DNA of 64,000 nucleotides from Enhydrobacter aerosaccus. GTDB lineage: Bacteria > Pseudomonadota > Alphaproteobacteria > Reyranellales > Reyranellaceae. Under the pieces are notes generated by a model that was not told the origin of the DNA, did no database searches, and saw nothing but the letters and a program-made list of their open reading frames with translations. The stretch covers positions 1 to 64,000 of the forward strand of contig CAIKZO010000070.1 of the NCBI GenBank assembly GCA_903832005.1. Direction: 5' to 3'. Numbering within the stretch: position 1 is the stretch's first letter; the number at the start of each line of letters is the position of its first letter. Made by a program: the position numbers and the translations under genes. Shown piece by piece: positions 1-9,651 of this stretch.

Positions 1-2203
1 CCAGCACGTTGCCGATCCTGTCGTACGACACCGACAGGTCGCGCTGCCAGCCGGCATTGCCGGGGTCCGCCGTCGCCAGCCGCTCGGCAATGGCGAGCCC
101 GTCGCGGAAACTCTTCAGCGCCTCCGGCAGATAGCCCTGCGCCACCAGCACGTCGCCGAAATTGTTGTACGACACCGACAGGTCGCGCTGCCAGCCGGCA
201 TTGCCGGGGTCCGCCGTCGCCAGCCGCTCGGCAATGGCGAGCCCGTCGCGGAAACTCTTCAGCGCTGCAGAGCTATCGCCAAGGGTGACATGAATGTCGC
301 CGGCCTCGACGCACGCATGGGCTTCGGCGGGCCGCCCCTCTTCGCCGATGGCGCCGGCGAGGAGCGCGACCATTTTCCACCAGGCAAGGGCGTCCTGCCA
401 AGCATAGGCCGCCGCACATGACTCCGCGACGCTTGAAAGGCCCAGCTGAATCGCTGCCCAGGGGCGCAGCGCCGACAGACGATGAAGGTCGGCGTCCCGC
501 AGCCGCATCATCTGGAGCGGCAATTCGGCGAGGCAGAATGGATCGAGCGCACTGAAATCGTGCTCGCTCGTCCGTTCCAGGAAGGCGTTCCACAGCCCGT
601 CGGCGAGGAGCCGAGTTCCCGCGGCTCGATCGATCACGAAAGTGCCGGCCTTCCTGCGATTGAGCAACCAGTCGCGCAGGCTCTTGTGGAAGAGCGTAAC
701 ACCCGCCGGGCGGTGCTCGAACAGGCTTGGAAGGCCTTCGTAGATCAGAGCTTCGTCACGGATCGACCAGCCGAAGAGCTTCCTGAGCCATGGCTCCGGC
801 ACGGGATGCTCGGCTGCGGCAAGGACTTCGAGCAGCGGCACGTAGCGCTCATAGTCTCCCCGATTGGGAAAATGCCGCCGGAACCAGCGCTCGTAGAGAC
901 CGACAAGGCCCTGCGGAAAGTCCTCCGGCGCTTCGAGTGGAAGCGTTCCCTCCGTGATCGCCTGCCCCAGCATGCGCAGATAGAGAAAGTTACCCTCGGA
1001 CGCGGCGAGAATGCGTTTAAGCAGAGATTCAGCCTTGTCGCGCGGCAAGTCCTGAGTCGCCAGCCATCCACGGACATAAATGCGCGCATCTTCGAGATTC
1101 TCCGCCGATTCCGCTTCTATGTGCACGGGAACAAGGCCGGCGAACTGGCGAAGGATGGGCTCTTCCGGCCGGCTAGTCACGACCAGGGCAATCCAGCCGG
1201 GGAGCTTTGCCGCATGGGCCGCCAGAATCTCGACCAGTTCGCTACGCCCATCGCGCACCGTCTCGTCGAGGCCATCGATCACGACCGCGAAACGGTTCTC
1301 GCGCCGGCCTCCGTCGATGGCGGCCGCCAATGGCTCGATCAGCAACCAGGAAAAGAGCGAGGCCGGGCTTCTGCGCTGTACCTCCTCGCGGTCTTCCCGC
1401 CTCAGCCGGTCGACCAGAAGCCGGCGGTAATCGGGCAGCCGGGTCGCCATCTGGAAGGCGAGCGTACGCAGCACGCGGCCGGCGTCGCGGCGGACATCGT
1501 CGTTGTAGAGACAGAGATTGATGCCGAGGACATGGACCCTGCGGTGGTGGGCCAGCCAGGCGGCAAAAGCGCTCTTGCCCGAGCCAGCGCCGCCGCTCAG
1601 CCAAAACAGGCGCGAGTGACGGGCCGAGTCCTGCCAGTCGGCGAGCTTCTCCTGCAGCCACTCACGGCCAACGAAGCCGTCGATCAGCTTGACGATGTCG
1701 GCGCTCTGCGACGCCGGCGCGAGGCGGCCTTGCAGCTCCTCGATCTCGGCGGCGAAGCGCTGCGCCTGCGGGCTGGCGAGCAGGTCGAGCAGCTCCTTCA
1801 ACTTGGGCCGGTACCAGCGCTCAAACGCCTCTGGTCCGGCCGCCTGGTGCCGGGCCCAGTCGTGCATGTCGAGCCAGTGGATGTGGCTCACCAGGGCGGG
1901 CGGCGCCTCCATCACCTCGGCGTCGAGCAGAACGGTGGCGATCGCGCCGCCTTTCTCGTGCAAAGCCAGGCCGAGCTCATCGAGGCAGACACCGGGATCG
2001 CGCACGGAATGGCGGGAGAGGAAGCCCAGGGTCCAGTCAGAGTCCTTCAGGCCGTCGACGATGCTACGGCGCCAGTCCTCGCCGGCCTTGATCGCCGACC
2101 TGTCGCGCCAGACGTCGTAGCCGGCGGCGATCAGGTCGCGCTCGATGCGATCGACGATCGGCTGGTTGTGGGCCTCGTGGCCGTAGCTCAGGAAGATCTT
2201 CAC
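1..2203 (-). CDS. TIR-NACHT-TPR NLR-like protein (C-terminus outside window)
   Basis: At least 734 residues are visible, read from a GTG start that overlaps the preceding stop (GTGA). Residues 1-115 form a TIR domain: it opens with VKIFLSYGHE, and CLDEL places a Glu at 76 where TIR NADases carry their catalytic Glu. Residues about 175-450 form a P-loop NACHT/STAND-type NTPase, with Walker A GGAGSGKS (204-211) and Walker B VVIDGLDE (307-314). From about residue 625 there are 48-residue TPR units containing LAIAERLATADPGNAGWQRD. This order (effector, NTPase switch, repeat sensor) is that of bacterial NLR-like defence proteins, in which TIR domains typically deplete NAD or make a nucleotide signal. 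That function is inferred from the family. The protein runs off the left edge, so the number of repeats is unknown. Domain calls are confident; an antiphage role is not shown. Confidence 0.88.
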   Translation of the reverse strand, partial: MKIFLSYGHEAHNQPIVDRIERDLIAAGYDVWRDRSAIKAGEDWRRSIVDGLKDSDWTLGFLSRHSVRDPGVCLDELGLALHEKGGAIATVLLDAEVMEAPPALVSHIHWLDMHDWARHQAAGPEAFERWYRPKLKELLDLLASPQAQRFAAEIEELQGRLAPASQSADIVKLIDGFVGREWLQEKLADWQDSARHSRLFWLSGGAGSGKSAFAAWLAHHRRVHVLGINLCLYNDDVRRDAGRVLRTLAFQMATRLPDYRRLLVDRLRREDREEVQRRSPASLFSWLLIEPLAAAIDGGRRENRFAVVIDGLDETVRDGRSELVEILAAHAAKLPGWIALVVTSRPEEPILRQFAGLVPVHIEAESAENLEDARIYVRGWLATQDLPRDKAESLLKRILAASEGNFLYLRMLGQAITEGTLPLEAPEDFPQGLVGLYERWFRRHFPNRGDYERYVPLLEVLAAAEHPVPEPWLRKLFGWSIRDEALIYEGLPSLFEHRPAGVTLFHKSLRDWLLNRRKAGTFVIDRAAGTRLLADGLWNAFLERTSEHDFSALDPFCLAELPLQMMRLRDADLHRLSALRPWAAIQLGLSSVAESCAAAYAWQDALAWWKMVALLAGAIGEEGRPAEAHACVEAGDIHVTLGDSSAALKSFRDGLAIAERLATADPGNAGWQRDLSVSYNNFGDVLVAQGYLPEALKSFRDGLAIAERLATADPGNAGWQRDLSVSYDRIGNVL
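23..265. repeat. Near-identical 144-bp TPR-coding tandem repeats
   Basis: The 99 bases at 23-121 are identical to 167-265, a period of 144 bp or 48 codons. They encode the TPR unit of the TIR-NACHT gene on the minus strand. Identity with no synonymous differences indicates recent duplication or gene conversion. The array continues past the window edge. Confidence 0.9.
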
Positions 2204-2403
2204 CGCGCGGCCTCGCCCCCGACGCCCGACTTGGCGACGCCATGGCGCAGGTCAATCCATTCCAGAGGCAGGCGCTTGGTCCGCAGCCACTCTCCCAGCG
2301 CCGGGAACACCTGCGTACGCAGGTAACTGCGCTCGGCCTGCATGTCGAGGAACATGCTGGTGATGAACACCGGTCGCGATTTCCAGACCGCCGCGCGCGC
2401 CAT
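2200..2403 (-). CDS. Truncated DUF4062 domain, stand-alone small protein
   Basis: This is a 67-residue product starting at ATG 2403, with a GGGGGCAGG purine-rich stretch just upstream. Residues 9-55 (PVFITSMFLDMQAERSYLR, then VFPALGEWL and EWIDLRHGV) match the first half of DUF4062, a domain usually found at the N-terminus of large NACHT, WD40 or TPR proteins such as NPHP3-like and TEP1-like ones. The second half, normally with the CxxEIDRCRPFFIGLLG block, is missing because a TGA ends the frame. That stop overlaps the GTG of the TIR-NACHT gene by 4 bases, so the two are probably translationally coupled. It could be a real split subunit or a relic of a once-fused N-terminus. An in-frame extension to 2568 exists but lacks a ribosome-binding site. 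Confidence 0.65.
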   Translation of the reverse strand: MARAAVWKSRPVFITSMFLDMQAERSYLRTQVFPALGEWLRTKRLPLEWIDLRHGVAKSGVGGEAAR

Positions 2404-2905
2404 GCCTGCCCCCACATTGAACGCGAACTCGACCGTCACCCCCGGCCAAAACCGAGACTGCCATGCCCGGTTGATCCTCGGTAGTCTTTGCACGTCCATA
2501 AAACTGACCAATCGACGTGTAAATTTTGCCCTTTGTTTATTGCCGGCAGCTTCGAGAGGTTGCAGCATTCCAAGGGGCGCGAGAGGGGTGACGAAATGCC
2601 GGCCGACAACGTGGGTGTACCGGTGCCGGCATCGCCTTGATTGGCGCGATCCTCTAGGTCGAGTACTTCCAGCCCACCGAAAATCGCGGCATGCTTTCGT
2701 GTTCCTGATTGGAGGCCGTCAGCGGCGGCCGATCGGAATTCCCTGTTATTTTCCCTGTTAGCAGGGAATTACCGTGGAGAAAGGTTCGTGGTGGACTGCG
2801 CCCACCGCCAGCGAGCACGGGAACTTTCTCTCCGGGCGAGCATGCATCGCAAATGAGATGGGATCGAAGATCACGGCCCCCGGGGTACCACCTTGTTTGA
2901 TCGTG
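2404..2905. other. Intergenic region upstream of the DUF4062/TIR-NACHT pair
   Basis: About 500 bases without a convincing gene. The part at 2490-2560 is AT-richer than its surroundings and lies directly upstream of the minus-strand DUF4062 gene, so it probably carries that promoter; I could not fix exact boxes. The part at 2737-2815 holds repeat copy A (listed separately). The rest shows nothing recognisable. Confidence 0.5.
2737..2815 (+). repeat. Two-part intergenic repeat, copy A
   Basis: The first part (2737-2770) has two TTCCCTGTT units and an inverted copy, so AATTCCCTG (2737-2745) can pair with CAGGGAATT (2762-2770). The second part (2777-2815) is a 39-bp block that is perfectly repeated at 4443-4481 and contains GGTGG and CCACC arms able to form a hairpin. 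Copy B has the same order and orientation, 1.67 kb away. I do not know a name for the family. It resembles small dispersed non-coding elements (REP/RIME-like) of rhizobia and relatives. Confidence 0.8.
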
Positions 2906-3901
2906 TTATCGGCGGCGCTTCGTGGAGAACGCGGCGTCGACGCCGTCCTCTGCCGAAAGCCGGCGCCAGCGATCAACACGCTCCGATGTTAGCGTGCCTC
3001 CGGAGATCGCAGCTTGAACGGCGCAGCCGGGTTCGCGCCCATGCGCGCAGTCCGAGAAGCGACAGTCCTGCGCCACCAGGAGAATGTCGTCGAAGACCTC
3101 CGCGATTCCGGTGGCCGCGTCGGCCAGTTGCAACTCTCGCATCCCGGGCGTGTCGAGCAGCCAGCCCCCTCCCTTAAGCCGATGCATTTCCCGGCCTGTG
3201 GTTGTGTGGCGCCCTGTGCCGTCGGTGGCGCGGATCGGCTGGGTGGCGATGTCGTCTGAACCGCGCAACGTGTTCACGAGCGTCGATTTGCCGACGCCTG
3301 AGGAACCGAGAAGCGCGACGGTTTGGCCTTTGCCGCACCATGCAGCGAGGCACGATACGCTGGCGGGGTCACGGCTGTTGACGATTTCGACCCGCAATCC
3401 GGAGTCGATCGCGCGTGCCGCCGCCGCGAAAGCATCCGAGGTGTCCGTCAGATCGGCCTTGGTGAGAACCACGACCGGGTTCACCCCCACCTCACGCGCC
3501 AGCACCAGATAGCGTTCCAGCCGCGCGACGCTGAAATCCTGGTTGCAGGAGGCGACGATAAAGAGCGTATCGACGTTCGCGGCGATCATCTGCTCCTTGC
3601 GTGCATCGGCCGGTGCACGCCGTTTGAACAGGTTCAGCCGACGAAGGACGCGTGTCGGCTGCAGCATGACCTTGTCGATAAGCAGCCAATCGCCGACTGT
3701 TGGATGATCGTCCGAGGGTTGGGCACCGGGAATATAGGGTGCAATCAGGTGCTGCGACCCAGCACCGACGACATCGATCTTACCACGATGAACGGCCATA
3801 ACCCGTACGGGATGGCATTGCAGCGCTTCCTCAACCGAAACCTGCTCGCCAAAAAAGGCACGCCAGCCGAGTTCTTCCAAAGCTTCTTCAGTCGATTTCA
3901 T
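2906..3901 (-). CDS. rsgA: Ribosome small subunit-dependent GTPase A
   Basis: RsgA is a circularly permuted GTPase that assists late maturation of the 30S ribosomal subunit. The 331-residue protein shows the permuted motif order: G4 as TKAD (147-150), then G1 GSSGVGKS (199-206), then G3 DTPG (250-253). A C-terminal zinc-knuckle pattern follows (C280, C285, H287, C293). An OB-like domain covers about residues 30-100. Length is normal for the family. It lies alone among accessory genes and between two copies of an intergenic repeat, with a small gene 27 bases upstream. It may be a transferred or second copy, since housekeeping rsgA is usually elsewhere; the window cannot decide this. Confidence 0.93.
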   Translation of the reverse strand: MKSTEEALEELGWRAFFGEQVSVEEALQCHPVRVMAVHRGKIDVVGAGSQHLIAPYIPGAQPSDDHPTVGDWLLIDKVMLQPTRVLRRLNLFKRRAPADARKEQMIAANVDTLFIVASCNQDFSVARLERYLVLAREVGVNPVVVLTKADLTDTSDAFAAAARAIDSGLRVEIVNSRDPASVSCLAAWCGKGQTVALLGSSGVGKSTLVNTLRGSDDIATQPIRATDGTGRHTTTGREMHRLKGGGWLLDTPGMRELQLADAATGIAEVFDDILLVAQDCRFSDCAHGREPGCAVQAAISGGTLTSERVDRWRRLSAEDGVDAAFSTKRRR

Positions 3902-4539: not shown

Positions 4540-7197
4540 TCAGCCCTTCAGCCAGACGATCCGGTACCCTGCCCGTGCAACCATGTCCGGGAAGTGGCGC
4601 ACCGAATTGCGATCCTTGCCCTTCTCCTTGTCGGGAAGGCGCGAATAGGGAATGAGCAGCGGGTGGATCTTCCTTGCGTCATCACGCGGGGTTCCACAGT
4701 GCCAGCCATTGCGAAGACGCTGATCCATCCATCCGTCGTGCTCGGCCTCGGCAAGCCGCTCCATGTGATGCTCGAGGTGACTGCGGATATCGGTCTCGGA
4801 GGGGGCGTCGTCCGACTGAGCTTGCTTCTCACCCTCGATCCCCAAACCGGCCAGCGCCAGGACCTCCGGGATTCGCCGGGCCGCCGCACGGTTGTCCTCC
4901 TTGTCGATCTCGGCGAGCCCGGCATAAGGCTTGTCGAAGTGTGGCTGCATCTTCCAGCCCTCGGTTGCCGCAAGCGTGCGCCAGGTCTCGTGGATACCCT
5001 CTGCGAGGATTTCGATCATTGCGGACATCTTGAAACCCAGGTTGCGATTGAGGATGGCCGCGAAATCATCGAGCTTCACATGCATGCCCAGTTGGGCGGC
5101 CGTTGGCAGCAACGAGCGTCGGATCGGGCCCCCTCCGACAGGCTTGAGCGGCGAGACCAGCTTCTCCAGAGAGCGTGAACCGTGCTTGTACCATGGCACC
5201 AGCAACAACGCATCGAGCAGATCAGAGTCGAAATCCAGACGATCGGCGTCACCACACTTGAGCACGCTGCGGATCAGCAACGCCCGTCGAAGAGGATGAC
5301 AGACATCGTCCCCATCGGGTGTCTCGGATCGCGGTATCTTGCGTTGGTTCGGACCGGCGACATCGTAGTAAGCGTCGAGCCGGCTGTGGAAATCAGGCCC
5401 TTTGCACAGCCGGAAATCCTGCCAGGCTTCCTTCTCCTCGGGAGTACTGCCGTTTTCCAGAGGACCAAAAGCCTCGAATGTGTGGCTGGTGCCACCGGCG
5501 AAGATGAATACGCATTTGCCGATGGCATGATTGAGCTGGCCTTCCTGGAAGCGGCCATCCTGCATCGGCGCCAGGAGATATTGCAGCCAGAAATAGCCGC
5601 GCGAATCGAACTCGTCCCAGAACACGGCGGGCGTCTTACCCGACAGGACAAGATCGCGGACCTGGTGAAACGCGCCCATGAGATCGGCCGGTCCCGCGAA
5701 TTGCGACAGGTTGAATTCCAGCCAGGCATCCTTCCCGAGGACCTCGTTGGCGATCTGCTTGACGCCGAACGACTTTCCCGCGCCCGGCGGCCCGAAGACG
5801 CCGAGCGAGAGGGGCTTCTTCGCCTTCTTCTCGTCGTGATAGCCGAGGATCAGGCGCTTGAAAGTGCGAAGGGTCTCGATCTCGGTACGGTCGGCGGTTA
5901 CGAGTTCGCCAAATACCGCGTGGGGAAGGCGCTTCAGGGCCGGCCGGCCTTCCAACACGACTTGCCGGGCGAGACCGACAAGAGAAGGCCTCGACGTAGA
6001 GCCAAGCGGCCGCTGCGACGATTCGACGATCGTCCAGGACGCCGCGCCGGATACCGGGCGAGTTGGCCGGTCCCAGGGAATGATGGCACGGGCGAAGGCC
6101 GATGTGGGCTTGAGGATTTCCGCCGCCAGGCGCGCGGCCGGATAATCCGTCGGCAACGTTTCCCCGAGCTGTCCGTGACCGAGGTCGAACAGATTCCGCG
6201 CCGCAGAGAGGCCCGCCTCGATCGCCGGGGCAAGGTCGAGTACTGGCAGCGCTCCGCCGACCTTCTCGGCCTTCAGATGGCGCGCCAGGCTAAGAGCGAG
6301 CGCGGCCATCTTCGGCGCGGAATATCCCATCACCTTTCCGTTAGCTCGAGCGCCCCATTCGCCTTCGGCGCCACCGCCATCGAAGGAGAGCGTGGCACGC
6401 GGCGCCTTCCTGTCGGAACGATCGACCCATAGCGCGCCGTCGGCAGCGAAGCTCACGATAAGGTGCCGACAGCGATTGAGACTCGCGAGAAGCGGATTGC
6501 GGGAGAGGCCGTCACGCACCTCCTCGACCGTCCGCTCCCAGCTCAGTCCCTGACTGATGCCGACGCATTCCTGGCGCAGTTCATCGGCCGAAACCAGACA
6601 GATCAGCCGATCGGCAAAGCGCTCGACCAACTCATGCCACAAGTCACCCTGGGCGATGGGCCGCGACATCTTGAGAAGGATCCACTCCGGCGGCTTCGTG
6701 TCCGCGGAAGGCAAAAGCCAGCCGGATTTCTGGGCGAGCAGCCGAAACTCCGATCCGGCATCTTCGAGCACCAGGATATCCGGCGGCGGCAGATCCGGCA
6801 GCGGCTTTGGGGCGTGCTCCGTGCAAGGCGAAGAGGTCCGCCCTTCCTCATGCCCGTACCCCATGATGAGATTGGTACGCCAAACCTTGGCTTTATCGTC
6901 CTCGCCCGACCGCCCCACAGGCTCCCAGGTGGCATAGGCGTGATGACCACACGGATTTTCGTCGAGCCCCGGCGTTTGAATACCGAGATGGCTGCTCCAT
7001 GAGTCCTCGCCCGCCTGGTCGAGCAGGCACTTGAGCGTCTTCTGCACAAGAGCGGCACCGCCCAATTCGTGCCGGTCGCGGACGCCGCGCTGCTGTTCGG
7101 TCGTCGGCCTCCCGCGTTCACCTTCATAGATGTGGTGATCCACGATCACATCGCCCGAGACGAGAATGGCGAAAGCAGGCGTGACGGGCTGGGTCAT
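4540..7197 (-). CDS. PfkB-like / AAA+ ATPase / tandem RyR domain protein
   Basis: An 885-residue multidomain protein; an upstream in-frame ATG at 7284 is possible, but 7197 opens directly into the first domain. Residues 7-300 look like a divergent PfkB/ribokinase fold: SGDVIVDHHIYEG, then GGAA, then WILLKMSRPIAQGDLW. It lacks the DTxGAGD catalytic loop, where FDGGGAEGEW sits instead. Residues 455-680 are an AAA+ module with Walker A GPPGAGKS (469-476), Walker B VFWDEFDS (525-532), a sensor-like FIFAGGTS (564-571) and an Arg in HSRLD (604-608). Residues 725-885 carry two RyR-type repeats: IHETWRTL with KEDNRAAARRIPEVLAL, and EHDGWMDQRLRNGW with the Hp-L-x-PY block and a final AGYRIVW. The gene stands alone in an accessory region. 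I infer an ATP-driven sensor or remodeller that uses a kinase-like fold to bind a small molecule or nucleotide. Its true role is unknown. Confidence 0.8.
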   Translation of the reverse strand: MTQPVTPAFAILVSGDVIVDHHIYEGERGRPTTEQQRGVRDRHELGGAALVQKTLKCLLDQAGEDSWSSHLGIQTPGLDENPCGHHAYATWEPVGRSGEDDKAKVWRTNLIMGYGHEEGRTSSPCTEHAPKPLPDLPPPDILVLEDAGSEFRLLAQKSGWLLPSADTKPPEWILLKMSRPIAQGDLWHELVERFADRLICLVSADELRQECVGISQGLSWERTVEEVRDGLSRNPLLASLNRCRHLIVSFAADGALWVDRSDRKAPRATLSFDGGGAEGEWGARANGKVMGYSAPKMAALALSLARHLKAEKVGGALPVLDLAPAIEAGLSAARNLFDLGHGQLGETLPTDYPAARLAAEILKPTSAFARAIIPWDRPTRPVSGAASWTIVESSQRPLGSTSRPSLVGLARQVVLEGRPALKRLPHAVFGELVTADRTEIETLRTFKRLILGYHDEKKAKKPLSLGVFGPPGAGKSFGVKQIANEVLGKDAWLEFNLSQFAGPADLMGAFHQVRDLVLSGKTPAVFWDEFDSRGYFWLQYLLAPMQDGRFQEGQLNHAIGKCVFIFAGGTSHTFEAFGPLENGSTPEEKEAWQDFRLCKGPDFHSRLDAYYDVAGPNQRKIPRSETPDGDDVCHPLRRALLIRSVLKCGDADRLDFDSDLLDALLLVPWYKHGSRSLEKLVSPLKPVGGGPIRRSLLPTAAQLGMHVKLDDFAAILNRNLGFKMSAMIEILAEGIHETWRTLAATEGWKMQPHFDKPYAGLAEIDKEDNRAAARRIPEVLALAGLGIEGEKQAQSDDAPSETDIRSHLEHHMERLAEAEHDGWMDQRLRNGWHCGTPRDDARKIHPLLIPYSRLPDKEKGKDRNSVRHFPDMVARAGYRIVWLKG

Positions 7198-8763: not shown

Positions 8764-9651
8764 ATGAGCGGCGTGGCCCTGTTTGCCGGCGATATCAGCC
8801 TCGATGCCACGATGGGGGTGACGCACGTCCCCGCCGCCGACGAGAAAGTCCGCATGACCTCCTTTGCCGAAGCGACCGGTGGCGTGGTGAGCAACGCAGC
8901 CGTCGCCGCCCGGCGTGCTGGCCAGCAGGCCACGCTCCTCGCCACGGTCGGCACCGATATCGCGAGCCAGGCCGTGCCGGCGCTGCTCCGTGGCATGGGT
9001 CTCGAACTCGATATCGAAGCGACGGAGGGCATGCTCTGCCGTGCCATGATCGTCGTCGATGGTGCGGGTGAGAAACGGCTGCTGCTCTACCCAGGCGTTT
9101 CCATGTACCCCTCGCGACAGGCCGTGGAGCAGATCCGGCTCGACCGCTTCGCCTGGCTGCACACGGCGATCTACGAGCCGGACGCCGCCCGCGTCCTGAT
9201 CGAGCGCGCTCGGCAGGCGCGCCTGCCTTTTTCCATCGATCTCGAGCCCGTCACTTTTCGAGAGAGCATCGATGCACTCGCTCCCCACATCGCGGGAGCC
9301 GACGTCGTTTTCTGTAACGCCCGCGCCGCCGATCAACTGGGTGCGGGTGTCGTCGACCGCTTGCGACGGTTGGGGGCGAAATCCGTGATCCTGACTCTCG
9401 GGCCCAAGGGAGCGGTCTGGCATGGCGACTTCGGCGTCCATTCAGTTGTGCCGCCGTCGTCGCTTCCGATCGTCGACACAACAGGCGCCGGCGACTGTCT
9501 CGCCGGATGGATCGTCGCCGAGCGTCTGCGTGGCACCGCCCCGGACGAAGCGCTGCGCCTCGCCGTGACCGCCGCCAGCCTGAGCTGCGGGCGGCTGGGC
9601 GCCCAGGCGTCGTTTCCGACCCGCGATGACGTCGCTAAAATGATCGGATGA
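8764..9651 (+). CDS. PfkB-family carbohydrate kinase
   Basis: A 295-residue ribokinase-family kinase that transfers the ATP phosphate to a sugar or nucleoside hydroxyl. The N-terminal ATGG-type motif is present as EATGGVVSNAA. The anion-hole and catalytic-base motif DTTGAGD lies at 238-244, with D244 as the expected catalytic base. Length is typical. It starts 22 bases after the monooxygenase gene and overlaps the next gene by 4 bases (ATGA), so the three are almost certainly one operon. PfkB kinases paired with BtpA/SgcQ proteins suggest sugar-phosphate or nucleoside breakdown. The exact substrate cannot be read from sequence. Confidence 0.85.
   Translation: MSGVALFAGDISLDATMGVTHVPAADEKVRMTSFAEATGGVVSNAAVAARRAGQQATLLATVGTDIASQAVPALLRGMGLELDIEATEGMLCRAMIVVDGAGEKRLLLYPGVSMYPSRQAVEQIRLDRFAWLHTAIYEPDAARVLIERARQARLPFSIDLEPVTFRESIDALAPHIAGADVVFCNARAADQLGAGVVDRLRRLGAKSVILTLGPKGAVWHGDFGVHSVVPPSSLPIVDTTGAGDCLAGWIVAERLRGTAPDEALRLAVTAASLSCGRLGAQASFPTRDDVAKMIG

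Follow-up and report, generated by a model that had tools for sequence, protein, structure and literature searches.

A pseudo-PfkB–AAA+–tandem RyR protein of Enhydrobacter aerosaccus, a candidate part of an NAD-derived alarm system

Thoeris is composed of the TIR protein ThsB and the SIR2-SLOG protein ThsA. SLOG/SLATT nucleotide-centred conflict systems were reportedly described by Burroughs and colleagues in 2015, and to our knowledge that description does not contain a protein in which a PfkB-like fold, predicted to be inactive, is joined to an AAA+ ATPase and two RyR repeats (pseudo-PfkB–AAA+–RyR). Such a protein is encoded in the stretch of DNA analyzed here (the window), i.e., the first 64,000 nucleotides of an Enhydrobacter aerosaccus contig (CAIKZO010000070.1; C70), beginning at base 1 of the contig. 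The gene lies on the minus strand at positions 4540..7197, starts with an ATG at 7197, has no internal stops and encodes 885 amino acids. According to a 2026 preprint, DUF4062 is a TIR-like nicotinamide adenine dinucleotide (NAD)-cleaving enzyme (NADase), which yields ADP-ribose (ADPR) and protects against phage (PMC13174449). Phage RyR-domain proteins bind or cleave cyclic ADPR (cADPR), and the contacts of the phage protein RyDEP with cADPR are H75, W78, H100 and D117 (preprint, PMC13232231). It is proposed that the 885-amino-acid protein is an AAA+ regulator that responds to an ADPR-type signal as part of a system for defence (probably against phage) or stress, in which TIR/DUF4062, SLOG and RyR proteins take part, and this proposal is moderately favoured by the evidence described below.

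The assignment of the PfkB fold, the AAA+ module and the tandem RyR to the protein is near certain. An AlphaFold2 model of the whole protein, built with an alignment of 64 sequences, had a mean predicted local distance difference test score (pLDDT) of 92.4 and a predicted template modelling score of 0.91. Single-sequence scans of genome contigs and viral contigs revealed no relatives. However, a tblastn search of plasmids revealed a full-length relative on a Methylobacterium plasmid (45% identical) and a RyR-less relative on a Streptomyces plasmid (33% identical). A profile of these two sequences and the window protein detected 192 relatives in 84,980 species genomes, and the best 80 were fetched and read. 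Conservation was counted in the alignment columns of 83 relatives, and neighbouring genes were counted at the best 80 of the 192 loci. Most of the 80 relatives match residues ~11-881, and nearly all of them consist of a single open frame, and thus the architecture is no chance fusion. In a Myxococcales genome (L042:10001-14485) a truncated family gene runs in frame into an aminopeptidase-N-like sequence; it looks like an insertion relic, and this long form was rejected as a functional fusion.

The tandem RyR was detected with several approaches. Pfam PF02026 (RyR) matched two stretches with 79.9 bits, far above the cut-off of 27.4 (E 1.7e-22), solved RyR R12 domains were matched by sequence (E 2.6e-29), and Foldseek retrieved RyR3 R12 and a Bt-hRyR chimera (E 4e-8 to 1e-6) over ~185 columns, which corresponds to the tandem. 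Repeat 1 (residues 720-790; 4828..5040, minus strand) has retained H736 and has N769 at the position that probably corresponds to the catalytic Asp. Repeat 2 (residues 801-882; 4552..4797, minus strand) contains H820, W823, H845 and D862, which are equivalent to the four RyDEP contacts and have the identical spacing of +3/+25/+42. H820, W823 and D862 are present in 75-77 of the 83 relatives and H845 in 67, while all of the 64 full-length relatives that were aligned have E819, H820 and D862. The ligand is likely to be ADPR or an adenine nucleotide. The family thus shares with RyDEP (PMC13232231) the PF02026 domain and the four pocket residues at the same spacing; in contrast to RyDEP, which is a standalone phage homodimer, the tandem here lies at the C-terminal end of a bacterial AAA+ protein, and its repeat 1 has diverged. 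Also the ryanodine receptor has a tandem RyR fold, the ligand residues of which are kept in repeat 2 of the family protein. In contrast to the receptor, however, the polypeptide has no channel and is joined to AAA+ and the PfkB fold, whereas a protein encoded next to some relatives joins RyR to a two-transmembrane RCK channel.

The N-terminal domain (residues 9-374; 6076..7173, minus strand) has the PfkB/ribokinase fold and is predicted to be inactive as a kinase. When residues 1-400 were modelled separately, the pLDDT was 91.7. A pseudouridine kinase was matched by fold (Z 19.5, 288 residues, root-mean-square deviation 4.8), HldA was matched with an E of 1.7e-9, and many more ribokinase-fold enzymes were found at Z 17-19. 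The Pfam profile PF00294 (PfkB), which the preliminary description had suggested as a check, did not match the 885-amino-acid protein, and only 2 of 61 relatives matched it (best E 0.09); the fold was revealed by structure comparison. At the position where the topology leads one to expect the DTxGAGD loop, a degenerate loop is found (GKVMGYSAPK, residues 287-296; 6310..6339, minus strand). Column counts revealed no conserved Asp at 288-297 in the 83 relatives; the missing catalytic loop, which had been noticed in the single sequence, is therefore a family-wide feature. Likewise, the NxxE motif is absent from the region 200-224 across the family, while G15-D16, D20 and G46-G47, which in PfkB kinases lie on the substrate side, have been retained. 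Taken together, the domain has the fold and the substrate-side motifs of enzymes such as HldA and pseudouridine kinase, but lacks the catalytic Asp and the NxxE motif, and by its anatomy it is predicted to be a pseudokinase.

The AAA+ module (residues 437-703; 5089..5889, minus strand) scored 19.1 bits with the Pfam AAA profile, which is below the cut-off of 21.2. Its motifs are nevertheless 98-100% conserved in the 83 relatives. This is true for the Walker A motif GPPGAGKS (residues 469-476; 5770..5793, minus strand), of which G469, P471, G474 and K475 are invariant and S476 belongs to the conserved positions, for the Walker B motif VFWDE (residues 525-529; 5611..5625, minus strand) with the invariant D528 and E529, for the arginine finger R606, and for R675 of the GxRS sensor-2. 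The full-length model also retrieved the AAA+ proteins ClpC, FtsH, ORC2 and RFC with Foldseek. As had been proposed in the preliminary description, the AAA+ motifs are thus intact, and all of the domain calls made there, i.e., kinase-like fold, AAA+ and two RyR repeats in one polypeptide, proved to be right.

The gene order was analyzed at the 80 loci, many of which are cut by contig ends. Neighbours were typed by Pfam domain, because single-linkage clusters had to be split by domain: TIR, DUF4062, NACHT and WD40 proteins had formed one "STAND" lump, and channel and RelA/SpoT proteins another one via their shared RyR. Five kinds of companion recurred, namely TIR, DUF4062, SLOG-like, channel-like and RelA/SpoT proteins. 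Within four genes of the family gene, TIR proteins were found at 32 loci, many of them large, multi-domain and STAND-like, DUF4062 proteins at 15, SLOG-like proteins at 26 and other RyR proteins at 20. Counts of RyR neighbours are slightly too high, because at L018, L040, L055 and L079 what was counted as a neighbour is probably the tail of the family gene, separated from it by a frameshift. In the same range of four genes, TIR or DUF4062 domains, both known as NADases, were present at 37 loci and SLOG-like or further RyR proteins at 40. An NADase-domain gene together with a SLOG or RyR gene was found at 21 loci, and at least one recurrent companion at 56. The catalytic Glu was kept in 47 of the 49 TIR sequences, including that of the window. 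All four types were enriched among genes 1-2 positions away in comparison to genes 5-10 positions away, in a statistic that treats the loci as independent: TIR with 27/261 vs 3/170 (Fisher p 4e-4), DUF4062 with 13/261 vs 0/170 (p 2e-3), SLOG with 24/261 vs 0/170 (p 5e-6) and RyR with 19/261 vs 1/170 (p 7e-4). A housekeeping role was rejected, as recurrent metabolic neighbours were not found across the loci read. Thus neither of the two outcomes that would have refuted the preliminary description, a lack of any RyR match or a restriction of homologues to housekeeping operons, was observed.

The SLOG-like neighbours have either ~190 amino acids or ~575 amino acids including a SLATT/DUF4231 part. 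The small gene has the same orientation as the family gene and usually begins 6-40 bp behind it, no solved relative of its product was found by sequence, and in L083 and L092 the family protein is fused in frame to SLOG. A second neighbour of ~600 amino acids resembles a channel (e.g., L053:4037-5776 and L074:5509-7332). In it, a pore-like loop, with LESG in place of the potassium filter TVGYG, is flanked by two hydrophobic helices, which are followed by TrkA_N/RCK domains and a C-terminal RyR. Of the 33 genomes of relatives that were searched, ~12 had full-length or near-full-length channel-RyR genes, as opposed to 3 of 201 evenly drawn Chloroflexota genomes. In one genome (G872) the channel gene is 633 bp away from the family gene on the same contig, and a SLOG gene lies in the gap. 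A third neighbour of ~850 amino acids is an unusual fusion of an alarmone enzyme and a nucleotide sensor, comprising a RelA/SpoT domain, TPR, a TRPM-type SLOG (LSDAT) and RyR (L024:8757-11294, L029:3448-6021, L043:7961-10525, L045:12918-15452, L049:1159-3822 and L056:7641-10259). Because relatives from many phyla adjoin NAD-cleaving proteins, nucleotide sensors and an RyR channel, the family protein probably belongs to an alarm system with an NAD-derived signal. The nucleotide or ADPR signal of the preliminary description is thus supported by three independent lines, namely the RyDEP residues at the same spacing, the TIR/DUF4062 enrichment and the SLOG/RyR neighbours, but the protein appears to act within a system of several genes rather than as a self-contained sensor-effector.

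Two plasmids showed further arrangements. On the Methylobacterium plasmid a 2082-amino-acid SIR2-family protein (L012:7299-13547), another NAD-consuming neighbour, adjoins the homologue, with transposase genes between them. On a plasmid of Priestia aryabhattai (L014:4446-6216) a standalone RyR-domain protein of 94 amino acids follows an adenylate/guanylate cyclase gene, a Pycsar effector gene lies further up on the same strand, and a TIR-domain gene is convergent to these genes. RyR may therefore serve cyclic-nucleotide defence too.

In the window, the family gene is followed on the same strand by a small gene, then by rsgA (2906-3901, minus strand) and then by a TIR–NACHT/NPHP3–TPR gene (2..2203, minus strand; Pfam TIR_2 1.2e-20, NPHP3_N 1.7e-22), which has the catalytic Glu E76 and is a possible partner. 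Near-identical tandem repeats are found within its TPR part. Directly before the TIR gene and out of frame lies a DUF4062 remnant (2230..2373, minus strand), which was detected with 42.5 bits by a model made from the relatives' neighbours and not by Pfam itself; a complete DUF4062 domain with catalytic Glu was not found in the window, where only ~48 residues of the domain are left. The closest relative (L015) is 64-67% identical; there, a DUF4062-NACHT-TPR gene of the same orientation ends ~20 bp upstream of the family gene, and a TIR gene lies in the vicinity. As rsgA and the small gene are common to congeners, a core gene is bordered by accessory genes on either side. Window positions 2737-2816 belong to a dispersed repeat of ~80 bp, copies of which occur at 76-94% identity in many genomes of the genus. 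A PfkB kinase with an intact DTTGAGD loop (8764-9651) was set aside as a partner, because it is on the opposite strand and is surrounded by luciferase-like monooxygenase, BtpA and transporter genes. Far from the family gene, on contig C156 of the same genome (L121:8480-10201), a 573-amino-acid protein with a SLOG-like domain is encoded, which is a candidate trans partner.

While the domains, motifs, conservation, gene linkage and fusions are seen in the sequences, the following scheme infers which ligand is bound in this family, what is remodelled and that the system serves defence. A STAND protein with a TIR or DUF4062 domain would sense infection and cleave NAD+ to ADPR or cADPR. The ligand would occupy the repeat 2 pocket, while the PfkB-like domain, which is predicted to be inactive and has kept only its substrate-side residues, might either accommodate a ribosyl or sugar compound or serve as a scaffold. 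Binding would switch the AAA+ ring, which would then remodel a partner. The likeliest candidates for this partner are the SLOG protein, to which the family protein is fused at two loci, the channel with the RyR tail and the STAND protein; this remodelling is the least supported step of the scheme. The output might be brought about by the partners, either at the membrane by the RCK-RyR channel or the SLOG-SLATT protein, or through the loss of NAD+, or through alarmones made by the RelA/SpoT-SLOG-RyR protein. The link to ADPR is indirect and is drawn from the pocket residues, the neighbouring domains and the preprint biochemistry of distant relatives.

Three other explanations are less likely. 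The RyR tandem could be an adenine-nucleotide (energy) sensor or an assembly module, which binds adenosine tri- or diphosphate (ATP or ADP) as in animal RyR3 or holds RyR proteins together in a device for stress or ion homeostasis instead of immunity. The solved structures of RyR3 R12 include complexes with ATP, ADP and AMP-PCP (structure titles), an RCK channel and a RelA/SpoT-like protein are among the neighbours, and the occurrence of RyR in three protein types suits mutual assembly; however, the TIR/DUF4062 enrichment and the patchy, interleaved distribution of the family point to conflict biology, and this explanation is rather unlikely. A somewhat lower probability is assigned to repeat 2 being a RyDEP-like enzyme that converts cADPR to ADPR and thereby ends the alarm or sets its threshold. 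The catalytic dyad H75/D117 of RyDEP corresponds to the near-invariant H820/D862, the Asn at the likely Asp position of repeat 1 is as in a non-catalytic half, and phages use standalone RyR proteins for signal cleavage (PMC13232231). Yet the other homologues tested in that study did not cleave the signals in spite of high conservation, while 6 of 8 bound them, and hydrolysis needs no large AAA+ motor. Very improbable is an active, unusual carbohydrate or nucleoside kinase that is joined to AAA+ and has a metabolic role. The ribokinase fold is clear, the GD15-16, D20 and GG46-47 motifs are kept, and D273 and E278 are further conserved acids, but neither the GAGD Asp nor the NxxE motif exists anywhere in the family, metabolic neighbours do not recur, and the gene is rare in related genomes.

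Several observations weigh against an AAA+ regulator of an ADPR-based defence system. The TIR gene of the window is cut by the contig end and parted from the family gene by the housekeeping gene rsgA, and because of the latter the two do not form one operon. A search of the host's genome revealed no channel relative. A universal partner is absent, as no companion type was present at more than the 32 of 80 loci counted for TIR, with many loci truncated. The enrichment control with genes 5-10 positions away leaves the general clustering of defence genes uncorrected. The SLOG label of the small neighbour is based on weak Pfam hits (YAcAr 0.013, DprA 0.008) and a motif. The relative on the Streptomyces plasmid (L013:11509-13635) stops before the RyR part, no RyR was found downstream, and thus pseudo-PfkB–AAA+ can exist alone. 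Because ATP and ADP are bound by animal RyR R12 domains that have these same pocket residues, the ligand may simply be an adenine nucleotide. Lastly, no family of PADLOC-DB 2.0.0 matched the protein at E 0.001.

NCBIfam has no matching family either, and no description was found in the literature searched, in agreement with the initial statement that no characterised protein of this architecture was known. The family is well conserved and, as far as this literature goes, undescribed, while part of its neighbourhoods may be described already. According to record titles, hosts belong to Pseudomonadota, Verrucomicrobiota, Planctomycetota, Chloroflexota, Acidobacteriota, Bacteroidota, Actinomycetota, Myxococcota, Armatimonadota, KSB1 and Omnitrophota, and one methanogenic archaeon also has a member. 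The gene is rare: it was found in 1 of 200 Chloroflexota genomes besides the search-centre genome, and a comparison with the DNA of 60 of the host's congeners listed matches to the adjacent rsgA, monooxygenase and repeat sequence, none of those listed lying inside the gene. In a FastTree tree of 83 rows the phyla are interleaved, with 28 changes over all groups vs a least possible number of 14 (Planctomycetota 8 for 10 rows, Verrucomicrobiota 5 for 5). This pattern fits horizontal spread, and paralogy or binning error may explain part of it. A phage origin was rejected, because phage records gave only short RyR-only matches. The three-sequence profile detected no member in the viral contigs searched.

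SLOG, SLATT, LSDAT and TIR recur in the family neighbourhoods as in the SLOG/SLATT conflict systems. The proposed system would also share with Thoeris the logic of TIR and a SLOG-type receptor; no ThsA-like gene was identified in the window, in which the contig ends within the TIR gene, and the receptors would be RyR, SLOG, SLOG-SLATT and an RCK channel together with an AAA+ regulator. Swarozyc/DUF4062 NADases (PMC13174449) have their counterparts in the DUF4062 proteins that often adjoin relatives and in the remnant of the window, but Swarozyc has been described as depleting NAD+, whereas the DUF4062/TIR genes here are linked to putative ADPR receptors.

In a wider and more tentative reading, which is possible but less probable than the role proposed for the protein itself, the loci may belong to an undescribed, widespread bacterial and archaeal ADPR system. 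A TIR/DUF4062 NADase signal would be read by RyR on the AAA+ pseudokinase, on the RCK channel and on the RelA/SpoT–TRPM-type-SLOG protein, as a prokaryotic counterpart of animal cADPR/ADPR–RyR/TRPM channel signalling. The direct action of cADPR on animal ryanodine receptors is a long-open question, and a bacterial operon with RyR beside TIR/DUF4062 NAD-cleaving proteins and on a channel would give a simple, testable setting for it. In addition, an AAA+ motor with a pseudokinase would be added to the parts of nucleotide-based immunity.

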